Shown: positions 1-42,814 of the stretch, in pieces
Position numbering within the stretch: position 1 is the stretch's first letter
How the letters are laid out: the number at the start of each line of letters is the position of its first letter
IMG/VR virus record: IMGVR_UViG_3300009425_000015
Coordinates: 16,308 to 80,307 of that record
DNA: 64,000 nt
Source of the DNA: a virus
Direction: 5' to 3' (one strand)
Position numbers and translations under genes: made by a program
Notes under the pieces: generated by a model
Seen by the model: only the letters and a program-made list of their open reading frames with translations
Told to the model about the DNA's origin: nothing
Databases searched by the model: none

Positions 1-20
1 TCTGCTGGACACTTTTACTC

Positions 21-49
21 ATTATAGCTTATCTTTTGTTTGAAGTCAA
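21..49 (-). promoter_or_regulatory. sigma-70-type promoter
   Basis: On the minus strand a -35 box TTGACT (44-49) and a perfect -10 box TATAAT (21-26) are separated by 17 bp. It lies just downstream of the lipoprotein gene ending at 64 and would drive genes beyond the left edge of the window. Confidence 0.75.
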
Positions 50-63
50 ATAATTATTAATTT

Positions 64-396
64 TTATCTTACTCTCGCTTGCGGACAATAATAGCAAAGT
101 CTGCGGGGGTGGTACGCACAATAATACCCATATTCCTCGTACCTATCTCCGTACCAAACTCCATGTTGCGGATAACACTCTAGCCACTCACCGTCAACCA
201 CTATCTGCTCTGTGGGATGCCTAGACTGGTACATCGGACTCCAACTACAGACGTGTAAACTTCGGCAGTCGCCGTATTCTTCACATACCCATTCCGTGTG
301 ATGGTAGTCTGGATTCTTTGGATCACATGTGTCGTCGTAATGTATGTTACATCCCATGAAGAACAGCATAGACACAAGTATTGTAATTAGTTTCAT
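64..396 (-). CDS. small Cys-rich lipoprotein
   Basis: Predicted 110-aa exported lipoprotein of unknown function. The protein opens with a hydrophobic signal, MKLITILVSMLFFMGC, whose end fits a lipobox with Cys16 as the lipidation site. The mature part is rich in Cys, Tyr and Asp, with many cysteines spread along it, suggesting disulfides in the periplasm. A longer reading frame exists, but the ATG at 396 is preferred because it gives the signal peptide directly and overlaps the stop of the upstream gene as ATGA, implying translational coupling. The Shine-Dalgarno is weak (AAGAAAG). No family was recognised. Confidence 0.7.
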   Translation of the reverse strand: MKLITILVSMLFFMGCNIHYDDTCDPKNPDYHHTEWVCEEYGDCRSLHVCSWSPMYQSRHPTEQIVVDGEWLECYPQHGVWYGDRYEEYGYYCAYHPRRLCYYCPQARVR

Positions 397-614
397 TGAT
401 TTACTTTCTTGAGGCTCGACGCCATTATCTTGCGATGTTCCAATTGCGATCCACCTCCCTTCTTGCACCACAACACAGAACAAAGATAATCTGTTTGACG
501 AAACACTGCTGACTCTACCTTCATAACAAGTCCATGGCGTTCGGAGGTATCACTGAGATTACAAAAACTGTGCTGATGCACTACCAAATCACCGACTTTC
601 ACCAACTTTTTCAT
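393..614 (-). CDS. KVGDLV-family small SH3-like protein (member A)
   Basis: 73-aa protein whose N-terminus MKKLVKVGDLVV carries the K-V-G-D-L-V motif shared by the array of small genes to the right. The motif, followed by a G-L-V-M strand and a later V-L-W strand, suggests a small KOW/Tudor-like SH3 beta-barrel; function unknown. Start ATG 614 was chosen because it has a GGAG at good distance and overlaps the stop of the upstream 27-aa ORF as ATGA. In this copy the repeated DNA core GTGAAAGTCGGTGA (589-602) begins at codon 5 rather than at the start codon. Its stop overlaps the lipoprotein start downstream. Confidence 0.65.
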   Translation of the reverse strand: MKKLVKVGDLVVHQHSFCNLSDTSERHGLVMKVESAVFRQTDYLCSVLWCKKGGGSQLEHRKIMASSLKKVNQ

Positions 615-694
615 CTGTTTCTCCAACTGTCTATCAACATCTGGCCGGCCCACAAGCCGATTGCAATAGTTATCACGCTTCCTAGAAATTCCAT
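611..694 (-). CDS. 27-aa single-membrane-segment peptide
   Basis: A tiny ORF with ATG 694 preceded by a good GGAGG. The peptide has one hydrophobic stretch (FLGSVITIAIGLWAGQML) and a basic tail, so it looks like a small inner-membrane peptide. Its TGA overlaps the ATG of the next gene (ATGA). It is the first ORF after the promoter at 720-748. Reality rests on the ribosome site, membrane-like composition and overlap only. Confidence 0.5.
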   Translation of the reverse strand: MEFLGSVITIAIGLWAGQMLIDSWRNR

Positions 695-719
695 TGTCTT
701 TCCTCCATTTGATATATCA

Positions 720-748
720 ATCATATATCATTTTTTCTCATATGTCAA
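720..748 (-). promoter_or_regulatory. sigma-70-type promoter
   Basis: Minus-strand TTGACA (743-748), 17-bp spacer, TATGAT (720-725). It sits between the tRNA-Arg and the 27-aa ORF, so transcription of the lipoprotein operon restarts after the tRNA. Confidence 0.75.
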
Positions 749-776
749 GCTTATTTTTTATAAGCCTTGTTACATG

Positions 777-850
777 TACCCCGGACAGGACTCGAACCTG
801 TAACCCTCGGCTTAGAAGGCCGATGCTCTATCCAATTGAGCTACCGGGGC
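777..850 (-). tRNA. tRNA-Arg (anticodon UCU)
   Basis: 74-nt cloverleaf on the minus strand. Acceptor stem GCCCCGG pairs with CCGGGGT (first pair G-U), D-arm GCTC/GAGC, anticodon stem TCGGC/GCCGA with loop CTTCTAA giving anticodon TCT, T-arm ACAGG-TTCGAGT-CCTGT and discriminator A. CCA is not encoded. It reads AGA codons. Position 850 is the 5' end. A small KVGDLV-family ORF reads into its 5' part on the same strand. Confidence 0.95.
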
Positions 851-1004
851 TTATTGTTTTACATTCGCTTCTTACTCGCCAGAATGTTCTCTCCCTCTCA
901 AAATCATAAAATTTTATTGTCCCACCCTCTATGTTGTCATAAAGCATGATGCCAATCTGTGTGTCATAGGTGCTCCGCCAAAGAATCAAATCACCGACTT
1001 TCAC
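828..1004 (-). CDS. KVGDLV-family small SH3-like protein (member B), ends inside the tRNA
   Basis: 58-aa ORF with GTG start at 1004 within the overlap with member C, opening VKVGDLILW and containing IGIMLYDN and TFWRV segments typical of the family. The frame stays open through the last 23 nt into the tRNA-Arg gene and stops at a TAG inside the tRNA D-arm/anticodon region (828-830). The last residues are therefore encoded by tRNA sequence, and RNase processing of the tRNA would cut the end of this message. Either the gene is genuinely fused to the tRNA or its original 3' end was lost. Confidence 0.55.
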   Translation of the reverse strand: MKVGDLILWRSTYDTQIGIMLYDNIEGGTIKFYDFERERTFWRVRSECKTISPGSSIG

Positions 1005-1194
1005 CTGTCACCACCTTTAAATCATAATCCCACACGTTGTTCCCTATGGTACCGTTGTTCCACAATACCTTGAACGTCTTGTTGGTGCAACCCATGCCCT
1101 TGTTGTGTCCGACATTTTTAATAAGCACACCGAACCGATCAGTGTGAAATATCCGGTTTGGATGGTTGTCTTTTACTAAATCACCGACTTTCAC
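991..1194 (-). CDS. KVGDLV-family small SH3-like protein (member C)
   Basis: 67-aa protein starting at GTG 1194 inside the end of member D and ending in the tail GESR, which is encoded by the next gene's start region read in another frame. The second half, with NGTIGN and VWDYDLKVV, is shared with member K (3491-3679), so C and K are paralogs that diverged in the first half. The motif pattern VGDLV / FGVLI / FKVLW suggests a small beta-barrel. Function unknown. Confidence 0.75.
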   Translation of the reverse strand: MKVGDLVKDNHPNRIFHTDRFGVLIKNVGHNKGMGCTNKTFKVLWNNGTIGNNVWDYDLKVVTGESR

Positions 1195-1357
1195 TGATTA
1201 CCTCCAAGTAATTTTTAGACCAGTCATTCCGGCTGTGGTTGTCATCGAGCCACTGTACAGATACTTGGCCGGAGCAGATTTTAACCACGATACCCATAGA
1301 CTTCCTGTATTTCTTCCAGCCTTTATCTCGTGGTAGCACTAAATCACCGACTTTCAC
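1181..1357 (-). CDS. KVGDLV-family small SH3-like protein (member D)
   Basis: 58-aa protein, GTG start at 1357, opening VKVGDLVLPRDKGW, then MGIVVKI, VSVQWLDD and ending YLEVISESR. The terminal ESR-stop is read from the same 14 nt that encode V-K-V-G-D of member C in the other frame. GGAGGT of the downstream gene's ribosome site encodes E-V here. The strand-like pattern G-I-V-V ... V-Q-W is the clearest SH3/KOW-like signature in the array. Confidence 0.75.
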   Translation of the reverse strand: MKVGDLVLPRDKGWKKYRKSMGIVVKICSGQVSVQWLDDNHSRNDWSKNYLEVISESR

Positions 1358-1532
1358 TTAACACCTCCATGGCATGATAGCTCCACACACAGTGACCTAT
1401 TGCAGTTATAACATGAATATCTGGATTCTCAAAGGGGCATTTCTCGTAACTCGGACATACGCCGCACCAGCCGACTCCCGTTACGATACCGGTACGCCCT
1501 TGCCCATTTTGTACTAAGTCACCGACTTTCAC
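1344..1532 (-). CDS. KVGDLV-family small protein with Cys cluster (member E)
   Basis: 62-aa protein, GTG start at 1532, opening VKVGDLVQNGQG, then TGIVTGVGWCGVC and a second Cys in EKCPF. Three cysteines close together could bind a metal, unlike most members. It ends MEVLSESR through the dual-coded overlap with member D. Its own start lies just downstream of a truncated gene remnant (1536-1637), so the seam here follows a broken gene rather than an intact member. Confidence 0.7.
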   Translation of the reverse strand: MKVGDLVQNGQGRTGIVTGVGWCGVCPSYEKCPFENPDIHVITAIGHCVWSYHAMEVLSESR

Positions 1533-1535
1533 TGA

Positions 1536-1637
1536 TTAACTCCAAGAATCTTGTGTCACAATCATCTTCACAACATGCTTGTCGCATGCCATCGAAGCGG
1601 CGATGTTTGGATTTTCGTCTAATACAAAAATATTCAT
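1536..1637 (-). pseudogene. truncated N-terminus of an MNIFVLDENP-type phage protein
   Basis: A 33-aa ORF with a good GAGGT ribosome site, starting MNIFVLDENPNIAASMACDK and continuing H-V-V-K-M-I-V-T-Q. This opening is one I recall from much longer conserved phage proteins that start M-N-I-F-V-L-D-E-x-P and have C-D-K-H-V-V-K-M. Here it breaks off and reaches TAA exactly where the array junction sequence begins, out of frame with the usual ESR ending. It looks like the 5' remnant of a gene cut when the cassette E start was joined to it. Confidence 0.6.
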
Positions 1638-1640
1638 TTG

Positions 1641-1880
1641 TTACCTCAATCCTTCGAGTCGCTCACTTTCGTAAGCACCACTCAAGTCAATCGAGTGGGT
1701 AGGATCCTCTTGGTTGATGTCTGCCCACACTCGCAGGGTGTATTTACCCTCATAGAATTCGATATACGCTATCGCACCGAATTCTTCTGCGCAACTCCCC
1801 ATACCCGTGATATATATATCACATGAGGTGTCGACACTGCCATTGTTGATCGAGTTCCCAATTCTAGTACTAACACTCAT
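1641..1880 (-). CDS. hypothetical protein
   Basis: 79-aa acidic soluble protein of unknown function. ATG 1880 is used because GGAGGG lies four bases upstream and the ATG overlaps the upstream stop as TAATG; an earlier in-frame ATG has no such site. Short beta-strand-like segments (IAYIEFYEGKYTLRVW) are visible. It separates the two sub-blocks of the KVGDLV array. Confidence 0.6.
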   Translation of the reverse strand: MSVSTRIGNSINNGSVDTSCDIYITGMGSCAEEFGAIAYIEFYEGKYTLRVWADINQEDPTHSIDLSGAYESERLEGLR

Positions 1881-2002
1881 TATACCCTCCATCCACATTT
1901 ATTGCAATAGGTTGTCCAACTGAATATCCATGTATATCCGCAATTTCCACAAGGACTACCGGAATTATTGATAAAAACTGATGACTTCAAAATATTTTGC
2001 AC
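1880..2002 (-). CDS. 40-aa zinc-ribbon-like protein
   Basis: Small ORF with two C-x2-C knuckles (CGNCGY and CNKCGW) separated by about 11 residues, the spacing of a minimal zinc ribbon. GTG 2002 was chosen because a GGAG lies six bases upstream; a longer frame up to 2086 would overlap member F fully. Its 5' 38 nt overlap the 3' end of member F in another frame, and its TAA overlaps the next ATG (TAATG). Confidence 0.45.
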   Translation of the reverse strand: MQNILKSSVFINNSGSPCGNCGYTWIFSWTTYCNKCGWRV

Positions 2003-2132
2003 GATTTGCTCCACTAAGTAACGTATAATGTTTTCCCCATAGACGGATCCAACCACCGTCCCCATGGTTAATCCAAGCGACAACACCGTATATCTGTGTA
2101 CGGCGGCTCCACACTAAATCACCGACTTTCAC
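1965..2132 (-). CDS. KVGDLV-family small SH3-like protein (member F)
   Basis: 55-aa protein, GTG 2132, opening VKVGDLVWSRRTQ, with YGVVAWI and WIRLWGK strands, ending FEVISFYQ. The E-V-I-S stem of the usual tail is present, but the E-S-R ending is replaced because no family member follows; the zinc-ribbon ORF follows instead. The start lies in a 14-nt overlap with member G. Confidence 0.7.
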   Translation of the reverse strand: MKVGDLVWSRRTQIYGVVAWINHGDGGWIRLWGKHYTLLSGANRAKYFEVISFYQ

Positions 2133-2274
2133 TGAGCGACTCATATTGGGGGTTCCCAACCCAGAAGTCCTGCCTAATCCCACAACTCCACAGTACTGTT
2201 CTGCGACCGAATCCATGGGTCAGGATCACGAGTCCAACATTATCGAGCTTTCTTACCAAGTCACCGACTTTCAC
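2119..2274 (-). CDS. KVGDLV-family small SH3-like protein (member G)
   Basis: 51-aa protein, GTG 2274, opening VKVGDLVRKLDN, then VGLVILTHGFG and TVLWSCG, ending YESLSESR. Both ends lie in 14-nt dual-coded overlaps with H (upstream) and F (downstream). It is among the shortest members, near the minimum for an SH3-like barrel. Confidence 0.7.
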   Translation of the reverse strand: MKVGDLVRKLDNVGLVILTHGFGRRTVLWSCGIRQDFWVGNPQYESLSESR

Positions 2275-2461
2275 TGATTACCTCCGAAGACTGTTCTATT
2301 TGTCTGCCCAACTGGATGATCCTGCCAGCAACAAGTAATTCCCAGTCATAGTTTAGCCAGTCGGCACGAGGGAGTTTCCTGATCAGCAGGGCGATGCCCG
2401 TTGGCAATCCCCAGTGTCTACAACAGCCGGGTGGTAAGTTTATTATGTCACCGACTTTCAT
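2261..2461 (-). CDS. KVGDLV-family small protein (member H), paralog of L
   Basis: 66-aa protein with ATG 2461 preceded by TTGGAG. It shares the pattern CRHW-LPTGIALL-KLPR-YDW-GR-LGRQ-EQSSEVI with member L (3666-3866), same length and roughly two-thirds identical, so the two are recent duplicates. Expression likely comes from the promoter at 2489-2517. The tail SESR comes from the overlap with member G. Confidence 0.75.
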   Translation of the reverse strand: MKVGDIINLPPGCCRHWGLPTGIALLIRKLPRADWLNYDWELLVAGRIIQLGRQIEQSSEVISESR

Positions 2462-2488
2462 TTGACTTCTCCAAATCTTCATATTAAC

Positions 2489-2517
2489 ACAATATCAGTT
2501 GTTTTCTTAAAAGTCAA
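2489..2517 (-). promoter_or_regulatory. sigma-70-type promoter overlapping a stop codon
   Basis: Minus-strand TTGACT (2512-2517), 17-bp spacer, TATTGT (2489-2494; four of six matches). The TGA stop of member I (2514-2516) lies inside the -35 box. Confidence 0.55.
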
Positions 2518-2666
2518 GCATTATTTTTACTAATTATCTCCAACTCTGCGGCGATGGCCCAATACCACTTACCGGATGGATAAAGCACGCGATAGTTGTT
2601 GAACATAATCTCTACTAGTAACCCTACGCCGAAATCGTAAGTCTCAACTAAATCACCGACTTTCAT
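2514..2666 (-). CDS. KVGDLV-family small SH3-like protein (member I)
   Basis: 50-aa protein, ATG 2666, opening MKVGDLVETYDFG, then VGLLVEI, YRVLY, WYWAI and LEIISKN. It has the L-E-I-I-S stem of the family tail but no ESR ending, since a promoter and not a family gene follows. A GAG lies just before the start. Confidence 0.7.
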   Translation of the reverse strand: MKVGDLVETYDFGVGLLVEIMFNNYRVLYPSGKWYWAIAAELEIISKNNA

Positions 2667-2680
2667 TTTCTCTTGCCTTG

Positions 2681-3124
2681 TCAAGTAGTTTCTATTACTT
2701 TTCGGAGTCTCGCCCTCATCCTATCCTCATCCCAGTCGAGAGTCTCGCTATGACACTCGGTGATGATCTCTTTGATGAGCCTGTCGTATAATCGCTTATC
2801 TTCGTCGTCGAGGATGTCCTCTTCTCTCCATGTAATAACCTTTTCCAGCCGCTCAATCTGCTCTTCAACTCTTTCTGGTGTATTGCCGCCACAAATATGA
2901 CAAGCATCATCTTTACAAGAGGAGTCGCAGTAACAATCTGGGCATCCCATTCCGCCTTCTTGATAGGCAACACAGTCTTCTTTTAGATGCTTATAAGGAT
3001 ATGGATTGTCCGCCAACTTTTGTAATGTTTCTTTGTGATCGTCAATAACTTGTTCTGCTGCTTTTCGGCATAGTGATCGCAGTTTGATGTTTTCTTTTTT
3101 TAGTTTTCGGTTTTCGTCAGTCAT
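2681..3124 (-). CDS. coiled-coil protein with Cys cluster
   Basis: 147-aa protein of unknown function. The N-terminal ~35 residues are rich in Lys/Glu/Leu (coiled-coil-like), residues ~60-80 hold seven cysteines (CPDCYC, CKDDACHIC), a probable zinc site, and the rest is charged helix. ATG 3124 has a GAGGAG ribosome site. It sits between members I and J of the small-gene array. Confidence 0.65.
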   Translation of the reverse strand: MTDENRKLKKENIKLRSLCRKAAEQVIDDHKETLQKLADNPYPYKHLKEDCVAYQEGGMGCPDCYCDSSCKDDACHICGGNTPERVEEQIERLEKVITWREEDILDDEDKRLYDRLIKEIITECHSETLDWDEDRMRARLRKVIETT

Positions 3125-3186
3125 TTTATTTCTCCTCGCAACTGTCCATAAGTATCAAACTCTTGTTCGCAAGTTAACACAGTGTG

Positions 3187-3504
3187 TTAACTTTCGCAAC
3201 CATTCTTGATTGCAGCGTTTGGCCCTGATCTCCTTGCTTTTGGGAATAGGGTGTTTTCTTTTTTTAGATCTCGTACCAAACTATCCTCAATTGGCTCTGG
3301 ATGGATACCTTTTGTCTCTTTGTTTGGTAAGCGTTCTATTTCGCTGAATATTCCCTTTATTGCGACGTTTGCAAAGTGCTCACAACTGTCTTCCAATGTA
3401 GTATCCCTGTCATAGACAGTGCAAAAACCAGTCTCAGCTGTGCAGGTTGATCTAAGATAAACACAGTTTCTACAATGGCGCTTGACCAAATCACCGATTT
3501 TCAT
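3187..3504 (-). CDS. KIGDLV seam fused to a Cys-cluster domain (member J)
   Basis: 105-aa protein starting MKIGDLVKRHCRNCVYL. Only the first eight residues match the family; a Cys-rich block follows (C-x2-C, then CTAETGFC, then C-x-H around residue 42) and a charged tail rich in Lys and Pro. The block resembles small zinc-binding modules found in phage hypothetical proteins. The start lies in the 14-nt overlap with member K, where one base differs (ATGAAAATCGG), giving Ile for Val and NENR for the upstream tail. It looks like a different domain joined to the array's start sequence. Confidence 0.65.
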   Translation of the reverse strand: MKIGDLVKRHCRNCVYLRSTCTAETGFCTVYDRDTTLEDSCEHFANVAIKGIFSEIERLPNKETKGIHPEPIEDSLVRDLKKENTLFPKARRSGPNAAIKNGCES

Positions 3505-3679
3505 TTACAACCTTCAAATCGTAATCCCATACGCGATTGCCAATGGTGCCGTCTTGCCACGAGACTTTGAAACTCTTGTTTAGGGCTGTAGGCACGTTGA
3601 GATACATTTCGGTTAGAAGCACACCAATTTTCTTTGCTCGCCCAGGATAGTTATAGTAAACTAGATCACCGACTTTCAT
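3491..3679 (-). CDS. KVGDLV-family small SH3-like protein (member K), paralog of C
   Basis: 62-aa protein, ATG 3679, opening MKVGDLVYYNYPG, then IGVLLTEM, FKVSWQDGTIGN and VWDYDLKVV. The second half matches member C. Starts in the overlap with L and ends in the overlap with J, so L-K-J are chained by two identical-length seams. Confidence 0.75.
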   Translation of the reverse strand: MKVGDLVYYNYPGRAKKIGVLLTEMYLNVPTALNKSFKVSWQDGTIGNRVWDYDLKVVNENR

Positions 3680-3866
3680 TGATTACCTCCGAAGATTGCT
3701 CTAGCTGTCTACCGAGTTCAATATATCTGCCATCAACGAAGACTCTCCAGTCATACTCCAACCCGTCATTGCGTGGTAGCTTCTCAACCAAGAGCGCGAT
3801 GCCCGTTGGCAGTTCCCAATGGCGACAGGCACCTCTTTGCAACCTTATTAAGTCACCGACTTTCAT
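3666..3866 (-). CDS. KVGDLV-family small protein (member L), paralog of H
   Basis: 66-aa protein, ATG 3866, first gene after the promoter at 3907-3934. Opening MKVGDLIRLQRGACRHW, then LPTGIALLVEKL, and ending LEQSSEVINESR. Same length as H and strongly similar throughout. Unknown function; the hydrophobic pattern fits a small beta-barrel. Confidence 0.75.
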   Translation of the reverse strand: MKVGDLIRLQRGACRHWELPTGIALLVEKLPRNDGLEYDWRVFVDGRYIELGRQLEQSSEVINESR

Positions 3867-4554: not shown

Positions 4555-4761
4555 TTAAATTCTCTTTCTCTTACTGATTATCTTCCACCTTTGGGTACCC
4601 CACCACCGAGAATCACCAGAGTTATCCAACACTAGTATATCTTTTAGCGTGGAATTGACGTCTAGAATTATCCCATGTTGCAAGACTTCCGGCTCAGGGA
4701 GAGAAGTGTTGAAGATATAACTAACTACTAGATCACCTATTTCATATTCGTCTTCGTTCAT
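4555..4761 (-). CDS. IGDLV-type small SH3-like protein
   Basis: 68-aa protein MNEDEYEIGDLVVSYIF... with HGIILDV, ILVLDNSG and WKIISK. The pattern GDLV, a G-I-I-L strand and an I-I-S-K end matches the array family, but it lacks the conserved seam DNA and stands outside the tandem overlaps. It may be an older, diverged relative. Follows the PAQR gene closely. Confidence 0.6.
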   Translation of the reverse strand: MNEDEYEIGDLVVSYIFNTSLPEPEVLQHGIILDVNSTLKDILVLDNSGDSRWWGTQRWKIISKRKRI

Positions 4762-5347: not shown

Positions 5348-6613
5348 TTATTTTACCTTCTTGGCAGAAACTAGCTCGTCTTGCCACTCAAGCATAGTCT
5401 CTATCATTTGCTTCTTGTTCATGGAGCTTATCTCTTTGTGAGACAACTTCCCATTGCTTGTTATCGTCTGCTGACTACTGGTAATTATCTCCCTCTTGTA
5501 TCCTTCTTTTTTAATTTTTTCTGCAATCCTCATCCTCTCTATAGCAAGATTTGCATATTTGTGTGAGATGTCAATGCCAATCCAATTTCTTTCATTAATA
5601 TGCGCCATCTTCGTGGTTGTGCCAGAACCAACAAATGGATCTAAAACAACATCTCCGGGGGAAGTCCATGTTAATACATGATCCTCTACCAGCCTTTCAG
5701 GGTAAATCGCTGGATGATCGAAAGCTATGGCATCCTTTGTTGAAAAGTTTTTTCCTGTATTGTATTTCCATATATTATTTCTCGGTGAAAATTCTGGTAC
5801 AGGCTTCTGTACACGACTCTTTAGCTTTCCATCCTTACCTCTCATCGAAGATATTCCAAGCCCCAACTTGGAATAGTTAACTCTCGTAAAATCAAACCCA
5901 GAGTCATCAATTGTGACACCCTCTTGAGTCTCTTTGTATCCCATTGACTTCAGTGCTTTCCTGATGAGTTCAAACAATTCTTGCTTTTCCGTCTCGGTGT
6001 GACTTCCCCCAATGGAATCAAAGTTAAATTTATCATTAAAGCTACCCCACCCAGTCCACTTATTGGGCTTGTCGCACACAAGATTGTGAGTTTTGGGCTT
6101 TCCCTTAGAAAACACAAACATGTATTCAAAAATCTGAGAGTATCGGTTGCCATCGCGACGGGCAGGAAAGGATGTGCCGTTCTTTTCATATATCATCGTG
6201 TCATGAATGTTAAACCCTATTTCCTTGAAGTACAGCGCTTGGCGGAATGAGCTTCCAGATTCGCTACCCTTGTCGACGGCATCTCCAACAACCCATACAA
6301 CCACCCCACCTGGCTTAGTTACCCTATGAAGCTCGTCTGCAATGCTCTCAAACGGGAATGAGTAACCGTTGTTTTCTGTGAGTTTTTCTGCAATCTTCTT
6401 TTTCTTGAATGCTGACAATTGTCTCTTGTATTCATTCTCATCTGAGAAGTCGACAGCAGATAGATTGAAGGTTTCAGTAAACTCGTCGGAATAAAATCTA
6501 ATGTCATCGTACGGTGGCGAAGTCACCGTTAAATCAACACTGCTATCGGGTAAATTTTTAAGCTTCTCTACAGAGTCGCCACACAATATTCTGTTAAGCG
6601 GCAATTGTGACAT
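5348..6613 (-). CDS. DNA methyltransferase (N6-adenine/N4-cytosine, beta class)
   Basis: 421-aa SAM-dependent DNA modification enzyme. Motif IV appears first as TSPPYDD near residue 30, then the HRVTKPGGVVVWVVGD strand, and motif I near the C-terminal third as DPFVGSGTT followed by WIGIDISHKY. This order marks the beta class. ATG 6613 is chosen over an upstream start because AAGGGAT lies at the right distance and the N-terminus then begins just before the NRILCGD motif. Its start overlaps the end of the putative endonuclease gene by 20 nt, so the two are probably co-translated as a restriction-modification pair. Alternatively it protects phage DNA on its own. Confidence 0.85.
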   Translation of the reverse strand: MSQLPLNRILCGDSVEKLKNLPDSSVDLTVTSPPYDDIRFYSDEFTETFNLSAVDFSDENEYKRQLSAFKKKKIAEKLTENNGYSFPFESIADELHRVTKPGGVVVWVVGDAVDKGSESGSSFRQALYFKEIGFNIHDTMIYEKNGTSFPARRDGNRYSQIFEYMFVFSKGKPKTHNLVCDKPNKWTGWGSFNDKFNFDSIGGSHTETEKQELFELIRKALKSMGYKETQEGVTIDDSGFDFTRVNYSKLGLGISSMRGKDGKLKSRVQKPVPEFSPRNNIWKYNTGKNFSTKDAIAFDHPAIYPERLVEDHVLTWTSPGDVVLDPFVGSGTTTKMAHINERNWIGIDISHKYANLAIERMRIAEKIKKEGYKREIITSSQQTITSNGKLSHKEISSMNKKQMIETMLEWQDELVSAKKVK

Positions 6614-7352
6614 TGGATATCCCTTTCCCTGCCGGAGCAGCACTAGCTAGTGTGTTGTTACTATCTCGGTATGAGCACAGTGATTCCTTGAGAATTTTAC
6701 ACCATTTCCTCTGGGGCGCAACAGAACCTAGAGCAATGTACTCCGAATAACGTGATGCTACCGAATTGTGAATTTTAGCCTTAGTGAAACTGCTTTTATC
6801 AGTGGCTTTGCCTGCCCAACCCATGTCAAACCCGTCAACTACTGAAAAGTGCGCGGACTTAAACATGCCAGCTATCGCAGATGTCGAGAATGGTGGCAAC
6901 TGAATGTCTTTATCTAACTCGTAGTTGATAAGGACATAGTTGTCAATCTTTCCGCTGCCCTCCGAATGAGATGAGCCAGTCCAGCCATTATCGCTCTGAC
7001 TAGTCTTTACTTCAAAGTATACTACAGACTCTTTATCTAAAACTTTCACGCCAAAGTCGTTTTTTTGTTTCTTTGCGTTGTGAAGTTTAGATACTGTAAC
7101 GAAGCCACTATCGGATAAGACTTTCTTAATAGCATACTCAAACTCATATGCAGCCCTAACAGTCAAGAAAACAGTCTGCTGCCCCTTGTCTTCCTCGACA
7201 TGCTGCACGTAGTCGTTAAGCGTTCGGATCGAAGGCTCAAGTCTACGAAGAGATTTAAAATTATCTCCGACAACATTCTCCACCAAGGCGAGCACGCTAA
7301 TAGCAAATTTCTTCGTCCTCATGAAAGATACTAAATCATCGTATGTCTTCAT
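6594..7352 (-). CDS. probable type II restriction endonuclease (PD-(D/E)XK)
   Basis: 252-aa protein. The central region has the PD-(D/E)XK layout: an Asp in KNDFGV, a hydrophobic strand, then the E-x-K of VYFEVKTSQS, followed by NGWTGSSHS and a Lys-Asp-N-Y-V-L-I strand, a pattern I associate with type II restriction enzymes. Location directly upstream of, and overlapping, the methyltransferase gene supports this. ATG 7352 is preferred because GGGAG lies eight bases upstream. No specificity can be read. It could instead be another nuclease of the same fold. Confidence 0.6.
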   Translation of the reverse strand: MKTYDDLVSFMRTKKFAISVLALVENVVGDNFKSLRRLEPSIRTLNDYVQHVEEDKGQQTVFLTVRAAYEFEYAIKKVLSDSGFVTVSKLHNAKKQKNDFGVKVLDKESVVYFEVKTSQSDNGWTGSSHSEGSGKIDNYVLINYELDKDIQLPPFSTSAIAGMFKSAHFSVVDGFDMGWAGKATDKSSFTKAKIHNSVASRYSEYIALGSVAPQRKWCKILKESLCSYRDSNNTLASAAPAGKGISNVTIAA

Positions 7353-7581
7353 CTCTAACACTCCCTTTTTTAATTAATTTTGTTATGACGTAAGTCAATA
7401 CTAGTCTATCATTTTCGCAAGACAAGTCAATCTCTCTGAATTCCTTAAGCAGTTGTTCGATATCTCTGAACAGTAACTCTTCTTCACAATGAGAAGTAAT
7501 TGGCACTGGCGTCACATGTGGTGATGGCCAGGAAACTTCCCTATCGGATCCGTATTGTCCTTTACATTTTTGTATAGGCAT
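7336..7581 (-). CDS. hypothetical protein upstream of the restriction-modification pair
   Basis: 81-aa protein MPIQKCKGQYGSDREV... with a helical C-terminal half rich in Leu and Glu. No helix-turn-helix was seen, so there is no support for a controller protein. Its 3' end overlaps the endonuclease start by 17 nt and its start lies just after the previous stop, placing it in the same operon. Confidence 0.6.
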   Translation of the reverse strand: MPIQKCKGQYGSDREVSWPSPHVTPVPITSHCEEELLFRDIEQLLKEFREIDLSCENDRLVLTYVITKLIKKGSVRDEDIR

Positions 7582-10709: not shown

Positions 10710-12590
10710 CTATGCTTCTTCAAACTCTGCATCAATGATATCGTCATCTTGCGAGTCTTGAGTTTGTTCTTCTGCTGGCTCTGCTTGTTGTGCTGCCTCA
10801 TACATTTTCTGGGTTGTCGACTGAACTAAGGCAGTAAGAGAGTCAAACTCCGAATTAATTTCAGACGGGTTATCTGAACCCTGAAGTGCAGCCTTCGCAG
10901 AAGCTATCGCTGTTTCCATTTTTTCGATGGAGCCAGCTTCAAGCTTTTCAGAATTTTCATCCATGAGTTTGCGGGTTTGAAATACTAGGGACTCCAGAGA
11001 ATTCCTCTTTTCTACGTTCTCTCTTTTTTGTTTGTCTTCCTCCGCGTAGCGCTTGGCGTCCTCTACCATGCGCTCGATGTCTTCTGCGGACATCGATCCT
11101 GATCCCTGTATCTTTATCGACTGCTCTTTGGAAGTTGCCTTGTCCTTAGCAGAAACGCTAACAATGCCATTTGCATCGATATCGAAAGTTACTTCTATCT
11201 GAGGCACTCCGCGGGGTGCGGGTGGAATTCCATCCAGTTTAAAGACACCGAGCCTCTTGTTGTCTGCCGAAAACTCCCTCTCCCCTTGCAAAACCTTAAT
11301 GTCGACTGCTGGTTGGTTGTTCTCCGCAGTAGTGAATACCTGAGACTTCGAGCATGGAATAGTGGAATTCCTCTCTATCAGTCTTGTCATGACGCCGCCC
11401 ATGGTTTCTAAGCCTAGGGATAGGGGGGTGACGTCCAATAAGAGAATGTCTTTCACCTCTCCCGAAAAAACTCCTCCCTGTACCGCTGCGCCTAGGGCAA
11501 CAACTTCGTCTGGATTCACCGATGAACTGGCGCTTTTTTCAAATAATTTCTCAACCGCCTGACGGACTAAAGGTATCCTAGTTGAACCTCCGACGAGCAA
11601 GACTTCATCAATATCCTTGATAGAAGCTGACGCATCCTTCATTGCTTTTCGCACTGGATCTAGAGTCTTTTCTACCAGCTCATCTATCATTTGTTCAAAC
11701 GTCGATCGAGTGAGAGAAACGTTCATATGCTTAGGGCCCGACGCATCAGCTGTCAGAAATGGCAGATTTATATCTGTCTGTTGCGCGCTTGATAGTTCAA
11801 TCTTTGCCTTCTCTGAAGCCTCTTTAAGCCTTTGCAACACCATCGGATCTCCAGATATGTCAACTCCCGTCTCCTTCTTGAATTCGCTCACAAGCCAATC
11901 AATTAAAATTTTATCAATATCGTCGCCGCCCAAATGAGTATCCCCGTTTGTACTCAACACTTCCACAACTCCGTCTGCGATGTCTAATATAGAAACATCG
12001 AACGTTCCTCCACCGAGATCATACACGGCTATCTTGCGCTCTTTTCCCTTGTCAAAGCCGCATGCCAGAGCTGCTGCAGTAGGTTCGTTGATAATTCTCC
12101 TGACTTCCAGGCCTGCTATCTTTCCAGCATCCCTAGTTGCCTGACGCTGAGAGTCGCTGAAGTATGCCGGGACTGTTATAACAGCCTCTCTGACTTCTTC
12201 CCCCAAGAAACTTTCCGCTGCTGCTTTGAGTTTTAAGAGCACTTGTGCGCTGATTTCCTGAGGGGCGTGCAACTTCTCGCTAGCTAGAACTTCACACATT
12301 CCAGAAGAAGACTTCTTCACCGAGTAGGGCATGGACTCTGCTTCGGCTGATATGTCATCGTACTTCATACCCATAAATCTCTTTACTGAAAAAATGGTAT
12401 TTTGCGGGTTCGTGACTGCCTGCCTTCTGGCTGGACTGCCCACTAGCCTATCTCCTAATTTCGTATATGCAACCACTGACGGGGTTGTCCTCGCCCCCTC
12501 TTCGTTTGTAATTATCTGGGGAGTTCCAGACTCCATGACTGAAACGACACTGTTCGTTGTTCCTAAATCTATTCCTATAACCTTTGACAT
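10710..12590 (-). CDS. dnaK: Hsp70 molecular chaperone DnaK
   Basis: 626-aa full-length Hsp70, close to the E. coli length of 638. Nucleotide-binding domain: [10 protein letters not shown] at the N-terminus, [11 protein letters not shown] and [15 protein letters not shown] phosphate-binding segments, and [13 protein letters not shown]. Substrate-binding domain: [12 protein letters not shown], the beta-sandwich and a helical lid, ending in the acidic tail [12 protein letters not shown] with its DnaK-like EExx end. All hallmark residues are present, so it is probably active. No DnaJ or GrpE gene is seen, so it would depend on host co-chaperones. Strong AAGGAG site; transcribed from the promoter at 12651-12678. 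Confidence 0.98.
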
Positions 12591-14278: not shown

Positions 14279-14632
14279 TCACGTAAATATCTGAATAACA
14301 ACAATCAGCAAAGATAATGCTACACACGATAAAGTTTTAGCTGTCATCATACTCTCTTTTAGGAATACGCTAGTAAGTATCGGGAACGTAACATAGGAAA
14401 GCCCGAAGCTCATAAACCTCGCCGACCAAACAGATTTACCGAGCCCCTCTGCAGTGAACCTCCATGCATACCAAAATGATAAGCCGCATGGAATGCCCAA
14501 CAGAACCACAGTTAGCAAGCCCTTGTCTTTCCACCAGTCATTAATGAACTGAAGATTCAGCTGAAACCAGCTTACTGTCTGAGCCAATAAGAACAGTCCT
14601 GCTCCAATTATTATCTTTTCCTGCGACGTCAT
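14279..14632 (-). CDS. four-segment membrane protein
   Basis: 117-aa protein with about four membrane segments (IIIGAGLFLLAQTV, LTVVLLGIPCGLSFWY, MSFGLSYVTFPILTSVF, LSCVALSLLIVVIQIF). The WSARFMSFG loop is of a type I have seen in phage and bacterial small membrane proteins of unknown role. Start overlaps the previous stop as TAATG. Confidence 0.6.
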   Translation of the reverse strand: MTSQEKIIIGAGLFLLAQTVSWFQLNLQFINDWWKDKGLLTVVLLGIPCGLSFWYAWRFTAEGLGKSVWSARFMSFGLSYVTFPILTSVFLKESMMTAKTLSCVALSLLIVVIQIFT

Positions 14633-14985
14633 TATTGAGTCTCCAGGCTTATACCAGCCTTAAGTAGTTCCGATCGGTTGACATTTAGCATCGCTGTTAT
14701 TTTAGATAGCCCCAACACAACTTCTACATCAACTTCGTAGTGGGTCTTCCCTGGTTCTGGAACAAAGTGTATCTCCAGCATCTCTCTGAAGGCGTGAGCC
14801 TCTAGCAGGATTTCGTGTACTCGGCTTGACACCTCTCTGCTGTGCAAGACGTTTCTAGTTGTGTAGTGATCAGCCAGTAGGGCATCGGCTCGTAAGGATA
14901 AGCTCTGTGCTTCTACAAAGAACCTCCTTACCTCAGTGGCTGTAAATGCTAGTCTTTTTTTAGGCTTTGGTTTATCTTCCGACAT
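14632..14985 (-). CDS. hypothetical protein
   Basis: 117-aa, mainly helical, soluble protein starting MSEDKPKPKKRLAF. No motif recognised. Coupled to the membrane protein gene downstream. Confidence 0.6.
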   Translation of the reverse strand: MSEDKPKPKKRLAFTATEVRRFFVEAQSLSLRADALLADHYTTRNVLHSREVSSRVHEILLEAHAFREMLEIHFVPEPGKTHYEVDVEVVLGLSKITAMLNVNRSELLKAGISLETQ

Positions 14986-14987
14986 GC

Positions 14988-15383
14988 TTAAATCCTCTTC
15001 CCTTTGCCCCAGAAGAAAGCGCTCTTCCTTGCCCGTGTGATAAGAAGGGCAGATATATATTTCTTACCGCGGGACTCCATTAAGCTAGCCTTGTGCAGCT
15101 CAAAGAGCCCATACTTTGGATATCTTTGCCTTTTGCCATACTTTTGCCTGGGCGGCGGTTTATTTAAGTAAGCCACGCAAGCTGCAGCCAACTCTTCGAT
15201 GGTTGCGTCTACCATGTCTCCGTCGTTGACGCGTATCTTTACTGCAACAACCCACTTTTTGGCGCCATACCCTGAGATTTCCCAGAAATTGCTGCCGTGG
15301 TATCTTCCGAATCTGACAGGGGACAACTTTGACGATGTTGAATATTCCCTTACTGGCTGTAAGTCACACTCCACCTCATACAT
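14988..15383 (-). CDS. hypothetical basic protein
   Basis: 131-aa protein with a strand-rich first half (WVVAVKIRV) and a very basic centre (PPPRQKYGKRQRYPKYG). AGGAG before ATG 15383; start overlaps the end of the glutaredoxin gene. Basic composition would allow nucleic-acid binding, nothing more is supported. Confidence 0.55.
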   Translation of the reverse strand: MYEVECDLQPVREYSTSSKLSPVRFGRYHGSNFWEISGYGAKKWVVAVKIRVNDGDMVDATIEELAAACVAYLNKPPPRQKYGKRQRYPKYGLFELHKASLMESRGKKYISALLITRARKSAFFWGKGKRI

Positions 15384-15636
15384 TTTGTTCTCCTATTTCT
15401 TTTTCCACGTCCGAGAAGCCTCCGACTAGTCGTGTGGCCCCGGTTAAAAGGTTGTTCTCCAGTATGATAGGTATTGTTCCCCAGCTATAATACCTTTTTG
15501 CCTCCTCTATACCTTCAACATCTTCCTCCATGTTCAAGAATACATATTTTATATCCAGCGACGTGAGCAAGTCTTCCGCTTTTCTGCAATAATTGCATGA
15601 TGGTGTGCCATAAATTATGTATCTTGAATTACCCAT
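15376..15636 (-). CDS. glutaredoxin
   Basis: 86-aa thioredoxin-fold oxidoreductase. Active site CNYC in YGTPSCNYCRKAE (residues ~14-17), the cis-Pro loop as GTIPIIL and the C-terminal LVGGFSDVEKE glutathione-binding segment. Full length for a phage glutaredoxin. In T4-like phages such proteins reduce ribonucleotide reductase, and a reductase gene is present at 35.9 kb, so that role is a reasonable inference. Confidence 0.9.
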   Translation of the reverse strand: MGNSRYIIYGTPSCNYCRKAEDLLTSLDIKYVFLNMEEDVEGIEEAKRYYSWGTIPIILENNLLTGATRLVGGFSDVEKEIGEQNV

Positions 15637-15937
15637 GTAGAATCACCTTCTTCGAAGAGAGGGAGAGACTCTCGCTCACCTCGTTCAGAGATCCAACGAC
15701 TGTAATCTCTGTATGATAATTGGAGTGACTACTGGTGAACATAATTGTACAAAAAGCTCGGTTCTCTCCTATCGTCGATGTGCTCTCAAATATCGCCGTA
15801 TTCAGCTTCTTGTTCTCTCGAAGAAACGCAACATGCTCTGAGTTGACAAGTATCTCCCTTGTTCTATACAACATTTTCGATGCCGGATTCTCTAAACTAG
15901 TAGATTCCCTGTATACTTCTTTTAACTTAACTATCAT
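15629..15937 (-). CDS. conserved phage hypothetical protein
   Basis: 102-aa beta-rich protein MIVKLKEVYRESTSLE... with YRTREILVNSEHVAFLRE and VVGSLNEV, and ending VILHG. I recall similar small proteins in marine phages without assigned function. AAGGAG site; overlaps glutaredoxin downstream. Confidence 0.6.
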   Translation of the reverse strand: MIVKLKEVYRESTSLENPASKMLYRTREILVNSEHVAFLRENKKLNTAIFESTSTIGENRAFCTIMFTSSHSNYHTEITVVGSLNEVSESLSLSSKKVILHG

Positions 15938-16155
15938 TTCCTATCTCCTTCGATTAAGAAAGCATTGCTTTTCATAACTAACCACGGGACACCGTCACAG
16001 AGAACTTTGTATATATCTCCAAAATCCCCCAACACCAACACCACTCGCGGTGTATGCAATTTCTTATACGCTGATGGGGAATTCTCATGATTCTGCATCA
16101 GCGTTTCCGATGGTAGGTATACCAAGCTATTCTTCAATGCTTTCCTGGTTTTCAT
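15934..16155 (-). CDS. hypothetical protein, possible SH3-like end
   Basis: 73-aa protein. The second half (VVLVLGDFGDIYKVLCDG, then PWLVMKSNAF) has the short-strand pattern of a small beta-barrel. Start at 16155 is uncertain because no clear ribosome site is visible; it overlaps the previous gene by 29 nt. Confidence 0.5.
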   Translation of the reverse strand: MKTRKALKNSLVYLPSETLMQNHENSPSAYKKLHTPRVVLVLGDFGDIYKVLCDGVPWLVMKSNAFLIEGDRK

Positions 16156-16438
16156 GATTATTTATCTTTTCGACAAGACTGTTAGCTAGCGCCGAGTTGT
16201 AGCTGGCAACAATTGCTAAACAATCGCTGATCAGCAAGTCTGCATGCACCATCTTGTCTCTAGCTTCGCTAAGCTTAATGTAGAATTCTTCTGGCGTTTG
16301 TTTATTCTCGAATTCTGACGCGGCGTCTGCTAAATCCTTAGAAGAAAGTCTCGAATACGAAACTGCCTTATCTAAAAGTCTCGCTACTTCTTCTGGGATA
16401 TCATCCATATCTACTGTATATTGTAATTTTACTTTCAA
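16127..16438 (-). CDS. conserved phage hypothetical protein
   Basis: 103-aa helical protein opening with a strand (KVKLQYTVDMDD) and IPEEVARLLDKAV. Apparent TTG start directly after the upstream stop; the start is not certain. Function unknown. Confidence 0.55.
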   Translation of the reverse strand: MKVKLQYTVDMDDIPEEVARLLDKAVSYSRLSSKDLADAASEFENKQTPEEFYIKLSEARDKMVHADLLISDCLAIVASYNSALANSLVEKINNHENQESIEE

Positions 16439-16788: not shown

Positions 16789-16814
16789 AACTCAAATCCC
16801 CTAACTATTAACTA

Positions 16815-16843
16815 ATTCTACCAGATCTAAGATAGAATGTCAA
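16815..16843 (-). promoter_or_regulatory. sigma-70-type promoter overlapping a stop codon
   Basis: Minus-strand TTGACA (16838-16843), 17-bp spacer, TAGAAT (16815-16820). The TGA of the 95-aa coiled-coil gene (16840-16842) lies inside the -35 box. Confidence 0.8.
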
Positions 16844-17127: not shown

Positions 17128-17163
17128 AGCTCACCCTCCAAAGTAGGTTAGAATACACCGTAA

Positions 17164-18738: not shown

Positions 18739-18771
18739 TATTACCCCTTTGTAAAATCAAGTACCCTATAT

Positions 18772-18799: not shown

Positions 18800-18810
18800 G
18801 TGTTTTAAAA

Positions 18811-20013: not shown

Positions 20014-20047
20014 TGGGTATCCTCCATCTTAATTAGTTACGTGCAAG

Positions 20048-40237: not shown

Positions 40238-41365
40238 CTATTCTTCTGTAGTTCCAGTCTCAAGATCATAAAAATCTGAAGCCTTCCCTGTCCTTTCGGA
40301 AAACTTTTTAATAACATCGTTATCCATCAAGTGCAGTACTCTTGCTCTAAACTTTTCGTTTTCCAGCTTCTCAACCCAACCCTTGCGTTGGAACTTTTCC
40401 TCCGAGCCGTCCTCATAAACAATCGAAAACCAAGCTCCAGTCTGTTTTAGGCTTTCAGAAATCTGAATTGCATCAAACCAACTTTCCCTATCTTGGACAC
40501 CGATTTCTCCACTGTCTCCCCAAAGTATCTTAAAGTTGCAAGTCCTACCTGCCGTGCCGAACCTAGATTTCTCTATCTTCGCCTTAACTTCTGATCCAAT
40601 CCTGAAGCCGTTAACGTCCGTCACATACGATGCTTTCGCTTTTCTCCCAGTAAGCCAAATCCTCAAAGAGTAAGAGTAAGGCAAGGACTTGCCTCCCGGT
40701 GTCATATATGGGGTTGTCATCGCTTCAGACGGAGAACGAGTTATATTGGTTTTTAGCTGATTCAATACCAGCAATGTTGCATCAGCATTAGCGATAGGAA
40801 CAACCAACTTGGACATACCCTTCGACAAGATTCTAGCCTTCTTCCCGACTTCCGAATTCGGGTTAAAATCTCCGGCAATGTCTGAAACCGAAGGAGTCAA
40901 AGCGAGAGAGTCCCAAATAAACAAAAGCCTATTACCAGTCGCTAGCAAGTCTTCTATTGTCTCCAGTACAAATTCTACAGATTGTGCCTGAGTGTACAAC
41001 AACCTCTCTAAATCGCAGCCTGCTCTCTCCAGGAAGTTAGGATCGATTGCAGACTCAGAATCGAAATATACGACGTCGATGCCCATCTTTTGGGCATTTG
41101 CAGCAACCTGAGCTGCCATAAAGCTCTTGCCCGTAGATTCCAGGCCTGCAATCTCAGATATTTTGCCCACTGGGACACCTGCCAACTTGCCCTTGCAAGT
41201 GATGGAGTCCAGCCACCTAGATCCTGTCGGAATCCAATCCTTTACCTCAGTGGGGTTGTCCTCCTTGAGACTATAGGCAACAGTAGAGCCTGCCCTCTTG
41301 TTAACCAAGGACTTCATTTGCTCGAATGAAACCTTGCCTGTTTTAATTTTGCTAATTTTAGCCAT
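40238..41365 (-). CDS. recA: RecA-like recombinase
   Basis: 375-aa recombinase. ATP site GLESTGKS with ISEIAGLE before it, Walker B RLLFIWDSLA, the DSESAIDP segment and NQLKTNI in place of the L2-type loop, with the GGKSLPYSYSLRIWL strand after it. Related to bacterial RecA rather than T4 UvsX in general arrangement. ATG 41365 with AGGGGGT is chosen over a longer frame. Recombination and repair of phage DNA is the expected role. Confidence 0.92.
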   Translation of the reverse strand: MAKISKIKTGKVSFEQMKSLVNKRAGSTVAYSLKEDNPTEVKDWIPTGSRWLDSITCKGKLAGVPVGKISEIAGLESTGKSFMAAQVAANAQKMGIDVVYFDSESAIDPNFLERAGCDLERLLYTQAQSVEFVLETIEDLLATGNRLLFIWDSLALTPSVSDIAGDFNPNSEVGKKARILSKGMSKLVVPIANADATLLVLNQLKTNITRSPSEAMTTPYMTPGGKSLPYSYSLRIWLTGRKAKASYVTDVNGFRIGSEVKAKIEKSRFGTAGRTCNFKILWGDSGEIGVQDRESWFDAIQISESLKQTGAWFSIVYEDGSEEKFQRKGWVEKLENEKFRARVLHLMDNDVIKKFSERTGKASDFYDLETGTTEE

Positions 41366-41396
41366 CTTATACCCCCTGTCGTACGATTGTGAATCT

Positions 41397-41864
41397 CTAA
41401 TTATTAGTGTCCTCTGCCACGTCAACTAATTCAATTTCAAAATTTAAAGTTTTGCCTGCCATTGGATGATTAAAATTCAACAATACAGTACCCGAATCAC
41501 GAATCTCCGCAATGGTTGCCTGTACCGGAGCATCCTGCGGGCCCGTGCCATGCACAATATTGCCGACATTAAATTCGAAGTCATCTGGAAACTCTTCTTT
41601 TGGAATTTCCTTAAAAAGTTCCGGATTTTCCACCCCATATGCCTCGGTTGGCTTAAGTGTGATATTCTTAGTCTCACCAATTGCCATATCGCGGACTGCA
41701 GTGTCAAAGCCCTCAATTAAAACACCAGAGCCCACCTCGAAGGTAAGTGGCTCGTCTCTAGTCCTAGAGCTGTCGAATTCCGTTCCGTCCGCGAGAGTGC
41801 CCACATAATGGACGCTCACAGTCTTGCCTTCTGTCAATTGCTTATTCTTATTTTTTTTAGACAT
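41397..41864 (-). CDS. FKBP-type peptidyl-prolyl isomerase (SlyD-like)
   Basis: 155-aa isomerase and chaperone. FKBP part: VSVHYVGTLADGTEFDSS, PLTFEVGSGVLIEGFD and AIGETKNITLKPTEAYG; then an insert-in-flap chaperone domain and the closing NHPMAGKTLNFEIELVDV, which is SlyD-like. The His/Cys-rich metal tail of SlyD is absent. Unusual in a phage; it adds to DnaK, GroEL and the GroES-like protein. A 120-nt structured leader precedes it. Confidence 0.93.
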   Translation of the reverse strand: MSKKNKNKQLTEGKTVSVHYVGTLADGTEFDSSRTRDEPLTFEVGSGVLIEGFDTAVRDMAIGETKNITLKPTEAYGVENPELFKEIPKEEFPDDFEFNVGNIVHGTGPQDAPVQATIAEIRDSGTVLLNFNHPMAGKTLNFEIELVDVAEDTNN

Positions 41865-41984: not shown

Positions 41985-42743
41985 TTAGCCATTTAGCAAA
42001 TCATTAAATGCCGCTTCGACAGAATCTTGATTTTGATTAGCTGCTTGGGTAGTGCCAAACTTTTCTACCTGGTTGGTTGAGCCGCCATCATTAGATAGAA
42101 AGGTGTCCAACAAGCCAGAAACTTCGTCTGTAGTCTTTCTCTCAAAAATCGTCTCAAAATCTGGGACTGTGTCCAACAACTCTGCACATCGTTCATCGCC
42201 GCCGACGGAATCATTACACAATACGCTCTTTCGAGGCCTCGGGCGGATATCAGTAGTCGGAAAGGACGCACCTGGGGCTTTACCATAAAGCACTTTCAAG
42301 TCGTTGCCCTCTTCAACGTCCGTGATATCACCATAGTCCGGATCCAAAACAATATTGAGCAGCTTTTGGTATGCCTGCTTTCCGTATCCCCAGACTCGAA
42401 TTCCTTCCGTCTCCTCTCCCCTCACCAGGACAGGTGAGAAAAATCGTTGCTTAGCGAACATATCCTTTGCAAGCCTCTTACTCTCTTCAGTCCCCTCATT
42501 CCACAGCTTGCTTCCAAAGTCACAAACCGGACATGAGTCTCCAAAATTTCTCTTAGGACACAGAAACCCACCCTTTGCAACGTTGTAGTGAAACCAACGC
42601 TCCTTGAAGGGATCTCCGTCCGAAGTGGTAACAATTCGAACGTTATTCTCTCCGTCTTGCGGCCGCCAGAACATCTTCCTAGCGCCATCCTTGCCTTGAA
42701 GGGCGCTCAACTTTGCCCTCATTCTGTCAATATCAATAGCCAT
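41985..42743 (-). CDS. single-stranded DNA-binding protein (gp32-like)
   Basis: 252-aa protein like phage gp32 ssDNA-binding proteins. N-terminal KMFWRPQDGENNVRIV, a zinc site FLCPKRNFGDSCPVCDFG (a Cys and a C-x2-C pair, possibly with the nearby His), basic core and an acidic C-terminal tail (QDSVEAAFNDLLNG) expected to recruit replication partners. ATG 42743 with AAGGAG is chosen. First gene of the operon from the promoter at 42815-42843, before FKBP and RecA. Confidence 0.85.
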   Translation of the reverse strand: MAIDIDRMRAKLSALQGKDGARKMFWRPQDGENNVRIVTTSDGDPFKERWFHYNVAKGGFLCPKRNFGDSCPVCDFGSKLWNEGTEESKRLAKDMFAKQRFFSPVLVRGEETEGIRVWGYGKQAYQKLLNIVLDPDYGDITDVEEGNDLKVLYGKAPGASFPTTDIRPRPRKSVLCNDSVGGDERCAELLDTVPDFETIFERKTTDEVSGLLDTFLSNDGGSTNQVEKFGTTQAANQNQDSVEAAFNDLLNG

Positions 42744-42814
42744 AATAAATCTCCTTATTGTTTTTTTGCTCACCGGCTAAAGTAAGTCGGCAAATTTCCC
42801 GACTCACTAACAAC

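Follow-up and report, generated by a model that had tools for sequence, protein, structure and literature searches.

The DNA stretch analysed here, called the window below, is 64,000 nucleotides (nt) long and covers bases 16308-80307 of an 80.3-kb virus record (IMG/VR record IMGVR_UViG_3300009425_000015; window coordinate = contig coordinate - 16307). Its minus strand carries all features of an array of tiny genes, or units, in which the last 14 nt of one gene are often the first 14 nt of the next; this dual-coding boundary is called the joint, and the remainder of each unit its body. Through comparison with related contigs, whole units were shown to have been gained, lost, permuted and moved between lineages, with the breakpoints in the joint. 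We consider it highly probable that the locus is an integrase-free gene-cassette array, whose units are exchanged at the dual-coding joints by general recombination.

Layout of the array and constancy of the joint

Twelve family genes were located at window 393-3866, each opening with V/M-K-V/I-G-D-L/I, and exactly seven consecutive gene pairs overlap by 14 nt (Table 1). Both results agree with an earlier sequence-only reading of the window, which had described about twelve tiny genes with a common V/M-K-V-G-D-L opening and seven 14-nt dual-coding seams. The common 14-mer is GTGAAAGTCGGTGA at five of the seven overlaps, ATGAAAGTCGGTGA at one and ATGAAAATCGGTGA at one. With up to two mismatches allowed, GTGAAAGTCGGTGA gave 12 matches in the window against 0.35 expected from shuffles, and none of 100 shuffles reached 12. 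The upstream frame had been said to end in E-S-R-stop, with a ribosome-site sequence just before the seam; ESR was found at six overlaps but ENR at the seventh, and exact GGAGGTAATCA lies 5' of three joints, with variants at the others.

The array had been placed at 589-3866, where it is present, but it runs with interruptions past the window start. The whole array spans contig 14541-20173 and contains 20-21 genes (20 by the final rule) and 13 fourteen-nt joints, broken up by unrelated sequence blocks and a tRNA-Arg. The final counts take in QVGD, RVGD and KVGS joints besides strict KVGD, and these variant joints with Q, R or S (VQVGD, VRVGD, VKVGS) retain dual coding. Mean identity of the 13 joints is 82% over -12..+19, versus 27% (ungapped) for the adjoining 120 nt of body, which equals chance; the early description of a near-invariant seam between divergent bodies is borne out.

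The joint consensus was built from 412 non-redundant junctions in 121 contigs, and the conserved tract is TGGAGGTNATCA-RTGAAAGTCGGTGA-YTTRGT. Where the tract codes in one frame only, third codon positions (-5, +20) are free, with about 0.1 bit. Within the overlap, 83% of junctions have C at position +8 and 12% have A, both giving Arg in the upstream frame; T, in which Val codons of these genomes most often end (35%), makes up about 1% at +8, because it would give Trp in the upstream frame. In the absence of an overlapping upstream open reading frame (ORF), GTC and GGT become less frequent, at about 60-64% and about 70-74%, respectively. This pattern indicates that the tract is held by overlapping coding together with the ribosome site. 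A fixed DNA recognition site was also considered for the joint and is ruled out by the free third positions. The seam had been viewed as a fixed joint, with a protein motif as the explanation that could undo this view. It is an exchange point, as described below, but its DNA is not conserved beyond the two reading frames and the ribosome site; conservation does follow coding demands, and the exchange at joints is nevertheless real. With its conservation constrained by codons, every boundary becomes a short direct repeat at which recombination is frame-safe.

The C-terminal SR is found in 542 of 691 overlapped units versus 21 of 463 non-overlapped units, and by these counts the upstream ESR tail results from the overlap itself. 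This shows most clearly in the body type of window 828-1004: where a unit follows, its C-terminus is ESR or ASR, but the window copy and those of L057 and L124 close with SPGSS[IV]G (L-numbers such as L015 and L057 denote IMG/VR loci used for comparison). In these three loci the last 23 nt of the unit overlap the 5' end of the tRNA-Arg, and the tail SPGSS[IV]G is, as judged from this overlap, encoded by the tRNA gene. The stop/start architecture, as read from the frames, fits translational coupling. That the upstream stop restricts residue 5 to D, S or N was tried as an explanation and was non-discriminating, since D dominates also where the upstream frame is closed. A decayed joint, GTGACGTCCGGCGATTTAGT, was observed at L082:1677-1850, L087:970-1143 and L037:11358-11531 (array-strand coordinates); its upstream stop is gone and the upstream protein runs on into SDVRRFSEG.

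Exchange of units among related genomes

Comparison with related contigs had been set beforehand as the test of the proposal that bodies are exchanged, gained or lost at the seams, and its outcome supports the proposal: close relatives differ by whole units with breakpoints inside the joint, units are permuted, and single units were transferred at joints. Among phages at least 95% identical, we found six independent clean indels in arrays, and in all six both ends lie in the joint, with 19-40 nt shared. They measure 176 nt (L015/L017), 703 nt (L037 vs L045 and L021), 330 and 196 nt (L037 vs L082/L087), 148 nt (L043/L122) and 175 nt (L082/L087). Two clean indels outside arrays shared 7-8 nt and were away from joints. 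In the fused joint, the left flank comes from one parental joint and the right flank from the second; through junction alignment, the L043/L122 crossover was placed after the sixth base of the joint. Two units occur in both L057 and L124, which are 98% identical, but their order is reversed.

Single-unit transfers between lineages showed 92-99% identity overall, with 68-76% for the compared backbones. A 231-nt unit of L053 and L057 is 98.7% identical (backbone 68%), 363 nt of L053 and L159 are 99.2% identical (backbone 76%), and the unit at contig 14911-14750 matches L159 at 91.7% (backbone about 72%); in this last case the matches stop at the joints and the neighbours are unrelated on both sides. 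Unit-sized matches started within -30..+13 of a joint in 79% of cases (random 21%) and ended within 0..+25 in 75% (random 15%).

The order of the bodies is poorly retained. In diverged genomes a neighbour was kept in 56 of 1638 comparisons of bodies (3.4%; 6.6% when body types were equally weighted) versus 660 of 2508 (26%) for ordinary ORFs of at least 90 amino acids (aa). The figures for near-identical genomes were 158 of 290 and 134 of 144, respectively. We give no p-value for neighbour retention, because bodies of one type yield comparisons that depend on one another.

Possible mechanism and rival explanations

Twenty-nine array-bearing contigs (80-293 kb) were searched for recombination proteins. 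None matched Phage_integrase (PF00589), which was found in all 14 control genomes, and none matched Resolvase; RecA/UvsX was detected in 28 and HNH in five. Considering that no tyrosine or serine recombinase was found and that RecA is present in 28 of the 29, general recombination, annealing or template switching would be the simplest agent. The barrel N-terminus of a unit, the upstream stop and the ribosome site are superposed and hold about 20-32 nt almost constant from one boundary to the next; the gene start overlaps the last 14 nt of the preceding gene (ESR-stop), 3' of a Shine-Dalgarno placed within the upstream E-[VL]-I codons. In the mechanism we propose, RecA/UvsX, gp32 or annealing machinery might exchange units at these short direct repeats, or templates might be switched there during replication or co-infection, in either case without a dedicated recombinase. 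Since both frames lie inside the joint, any crossover there would restore stop, ribosome site and start, and all products would be translatable. In phage T6, tandem amplification at microhomology is abolished without uvsX or uvsY (PMC13096335), so such machinery can act on short repeats.

An integron-like system, in which the joint serves as recognition site of a dedicated tyrosine or serine recombinase, would explain the array layout, the one orientation per genome, the permutation and the large open pool of bodies. We hold it to be very improbable, given the missing Phage_integrase and Resolvase matches, a joint that is non-palindromic and conserved as codons rather than as a fixed site, and shared sequence of 19-40 nt at the events that varies with local similarity. 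A homing-type endonuclease that cuts the joint, with break repair copying in another unit, has a parallel in T6, where accessory loci can be amplified through SegB, UvsX and microhomology (PMC13096335), and the HNH domains of five contigs might be read in its favour; no HNH match was obtained in the other 24 contigs (the GIY-YIG and LAGLIDADG families were not searched), and this route seems quite unlikely to us.

An ordinary tandem gene family under birth and death is also unlikely; in it the units would be paralogues by local duplication, the joint would be no more than a conserved protein motif combined with the overlap, and transfer among phages would matter little. Joint conservation that tracks codon degeneracy and dual coding is what such a family would produce, and two paralogue pairs do lie within the window array; but units 92-99% identical between unrelated neighbours on backbones of 68-76%, the 3.4% neighbour retention, KVGD starts on non-barrel bodies, and 507 of 759 body types that occur once all speak against it. 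The joint could mainly be an expression element, that is, a fixed translation-initiation sequence resembling the start-associated sequences (SAS) of mycobacteriophages, with recombination as a side effect. The ribosome site and start codon lie inside the joint, and the SAS authors also proposed recombination as a possible consequence (PMC3203893). Conservation reaching 19 nt into the gene and obeying codon degeneracy, and the relaxation of solitary family genes to GTC 64% and GGT 74%, make this improbable as the main function, although it is compatible with exchange by general recombination and the two are not mutually exclusive.

There is very little chance that the pattern is an assembly artefact, in which short-read assemblers joined fragments of different phages at the 20-32-nt joint. 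The joints are exact or near-exact repeats within one genome, as such an error would need, but L157 and L161, from different sample accessions, are 99.7% identical over 20.7 kb with the array included, so that assembly error is unlikely as a general cause. The same array order was likewise given by different sample accessions for L029/L052 and for all other units of L015/L017. Ordinary clean indels also occur outside arrays, and relatives have the array at the same locus despite almost wholly different content.

Several points weigh against an array exchanged at its joints by general recombination. A shared stretch of 19-22 nt offers little homology for RecA-type pairing. Alignment A1 contains a row (VKVGDLVKDNHPSRHGAERYGIILGFSTRFLIHRY...) whose body resembles a chimera of two body types within one cluster, which suggests that exchange may occur beyond the joints too. 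Joints of 20-32 nt are a repeat type that can mislead short-read assembly, which is the chief technical risk, and in the assembled contigs neither an exchange rate nor a live intermediate was seen. Moreover, the conservation of the joint is largely driven by coding and does not demonstrate selection for exchange. In a bolder version, the joint has been selected as a format for exchange that many large phage lineages have in common; it would allow the recombination machinery of the phage to plug unrelated bodies, mostly barrels and now and then membrane or helical proteins, into a polycistronic array, and would be in effect an integrase-free integron. We put this version forward tentatively and think it somewhat less probable than its opposite. 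If true, the format would be a frame-safe common currency that gives phages a rapidly reshuffled accessory proteome.

Carriers, unit proteins and comparison with known systems

The joint of about 32 nt is present in at least 120 IMG/VR contigs. The pattern scan of IMG/VR returned at least 119 stretches, and the yield of a further scan that admitted any synonymous codon is likewise a lower bound. The complete exact-pattern scan gave mostly contigs already found, which implies that the sample covers most IMG/VR carriers. The retrieved loci, to which all counts of genes, overlaps and body types refer, contain 1332 family genes, 691 exact 14-nt overlaps, 78 overlaps of 4 nt and 759 body types, and joint-linked runs reach 19. 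In each of the 29 contigs every exact joint lies on one strand. One exact joint pattern had no match in GTDB genomes, which gives no sign of prophages. A constructed consensus protein had no match in 50,697 isolate phage records, a 38-nt joint query found only chance-level matches of 17-22 nt in isolate phage records, and no relatives were found of a 224-aa gene flanking the array. The carriers are large uncultured viruses, apparently lytic phages of bacteria and probably of marine origin.

Units are tiny genes, some 60 codons long, and predicted barrel members begin with [MV]-[KQR]-V-G-D-L-V. Two units modelled with AlphaFold2 are predicted to form five-stranded SH3-like barrels, with predicted local distance difference test (pLDDT) scores of 82.8 and 90.4. 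The nearest solved structures by Foldseek were Spt5/NusG KOW and PWWP/Tudor domains and SPbeta YorP, with E of about 0.01-0.05 and none below 0.001. A weak NusG profile match was obtained, and Pfam and PHROG scans of the single window units tested assigned no family at significance; the family is SH3/KOW-like by model prediction, not by significant sequence match. By inspection, non-barrel bodies with a KVGD start or both joints include membrane proteins (L029/L052, L104_10735) and a helical protein (L158_17213), which argues that the joint can travel apart from the fold. In the viral structure library, many top hits obtained with the unit at contig 15074-14898 carry neighbouring accessions (A0A516M...), suggesting several paralogues from one deposited, unannotated virus data set. 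The 68-aa protein at window 4555-4761 starts with EIGDLV and shows a barrel-like pattern; it lacks a joint and is possibly a solitary relative of the family. We infer for the diverse barrels an early, non-structural, accessory role within a fast-changing repertoire, which probably serves interaction with host or rival factors. The fast turnover of unit proteins suggests that they act in conflict with hosts or with other phages, and the array brings to notice a large class of small, variable phage proteins that is almost without annotation.

The window gene set is T4-like and large, including RecA/UvsX, gp32-like single-strand binding protein, DnaB-type helicase, 5'-3' exonuclease, GroEL and DnaK. 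At window 5348-7361 an N6/N4 DNA methyltransferase gene overlaps an upstream 255-aa gene of no known family, which is also near the array in the relatives L157-L159; together they might serve the phage as a modification or restriction pair. At window 10710-12590, 17164-18738 and 20048-20815 the phage encodes DnaK in full length, a GroEL-like chaperonin and a ClpP-like protease. IMPDH/GMP reductase (22784-23848), ThyX (33035-33766) and class II ribonucleotide reductase (35897-37765) form an extended nucleotide metabolism set.

Table 1. Units, joints and related features (window coordinates unless marked contig).
Feature	Position	Strand	Remark
Unit 1, 66 aa (MKVGDLIRLQRG...INESR)	3666..3866	-	paralogue at 2261-2461; homologues in 12+ contigs
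Joint 1, 14-nt overlap ATGAAAGTCGGTGA	3666..3679	-	GGAGGTAATCA before it
Unit 2, 62 aa (KVGDLVYYNYPG...NENR)	3491..3679	-	body type in 21 loci
Joint 2, 14-nt overlap ATGAAAATCGGTGA	3491..3504	-	
Unit 3, 105 aa (MKIGDLVKRHCRNCVYL...), Cys-containing	3187..3504	-	overlaps no following unit; no Pfam match
Unit 4, 50 aa (MKVGDLVETYDFGVG...)	2514..2666	-	body common to L082, L087, L125
Unit 5, 66 aa (MKVGDIINLPPG...ISESR)	2261..2461	-	paralogue of unit 1
Joint 3, GTGAAAGTCGGTGA	2261..2274	-	
Unit 6, 51 aa	2119..2274	-	
Joint 4, GTGAAAGTCGGTGA	2119..2132	-	
Unit 7, 55 aa, C-terminus VISFYQ	1965..2132	-	without following unit
Unit 8, 62 aa (VKVGDLVQNGQG...)	1344..1532	-	79% DNA match in L159, joint-bounded
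Joint 5, GTGAAAGTCGGTGA	1344..1357	-	
Unit 9, 58 aa	1181..1357	-	
Joint 6, GTGAAAGTCGGTGA	1181..1194	-	with GGAGGTAATCA
Unit 10, 67 aa (VKVGDLVKDNHP...)	991..1194	-	predicted SH3-like barrel, pLDDT 82.8
Joint 7, GTGAAAGTCGGTGA	991..1004	-	
Unit 11, 58 aa	828..1004	-	tail SPGSSIG-stop from tRNA-Arg 5' end
tRNA-Arg (TCT)	776..850	-	closes run of units
Unit 12, 69 aa	393..602	-	solitary member, 14-mer at 589-602
Array beyond window edge (window 1..392 on)	contig 15931-14541	-	8 more units, six 14-nt joints
Unit VKVGSLVRRK...	contig 14911-14750	-	91.7% identical to L159 unit
RecA/UvsX-like recombinase	40238..41425	-	Pfam PF00154, E 2e-35; putative exchange agent
gp32-like single-strand binding protein	41985..42773	-	Pfam PF08804, E 8e-13

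Phage mosaicism at gene boundaries has long been debated, with illegitimate recombination plus selection on one side and recombination at conserved linkers on the other. The array offers a natural replicated case (hundreds of joints, more than 750 body types), in which linker-directed single-gene exchange is directly readable and the linker is explained by overlapping coding, not by a recombinase site. A boundary sequence common to unrelated genes and exchange breakpoints within it, as in conserved-linker shuffling, were both found here. Through literature search, we found no earlier account of such an array; among known systems, PeSL cassettes of T4-type phages, lambdoid boundary sequences and the SAS of cluster K mycobacteriophages come closest.

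With the SH3-like/KOW/Tudor small barrels (NusG, Spt5, SPbeta YorP), two units share the same predicted five-stranded fold, while the tested window units lack a significant Pfam or PHROG family. Lambdoid boundary or linker sequences and the interlinked lambda ninR genes are said to have been proposed, by Susskind and Botstein, Kroger and Hobom, and Clark et al., as modular exchange sites at stop/start overlaps. The nin genes are similarly chained small accessory genes with stop/start overlap and ribosome site; however, their junctions are mostly 4-nt overlaps with 37% identity over -12..+19 (82% in the array contig), and they are not of one repeated fold. An integron has in common the linear array of single-gene cassettes, the open pool and the shuffled order, which varies here between close relatives, but no integrase was found (0/29 for PF00589), the cassettes here overlap in coding sequence and no attC-like site was seen; the joint as a non-palindromic coding tract speaks against a structured site.

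The PeSL/PeMob cassettes of T4-type phages (Arbiol 2010, Comeau 2014, as cited in PMC4503421 and PMC4177764) are described as promoter and stem-loop motifs between genes. The likeness lies in short repeats at gene boundaries of T4-like phages that shuffle small accessory genes, and the difference in that the repeat here is inside overlapping coding sequence (stop, ribosome site, start); PeSL proper has an early promoter and terminator stem-loop in the repeat (PMC4503421), whereas the joint is fully coding. The SAS of cluster K mycobacteriophages, GGGATAGGAGCCC, stands immediately upstream of start codons and is likewise a short asymmetric start-linked repeat in one orientation, next to genes of different families (PMC3203893). 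The joint consensus differs from it and spans the start; the stop of the previous gene is not encoded in SAS, and unit exchange at SAS is not described in the consulted text. The present system is best placed with linker-mediated modular exchange, as a form distinct from PeSL, integron and SAS.

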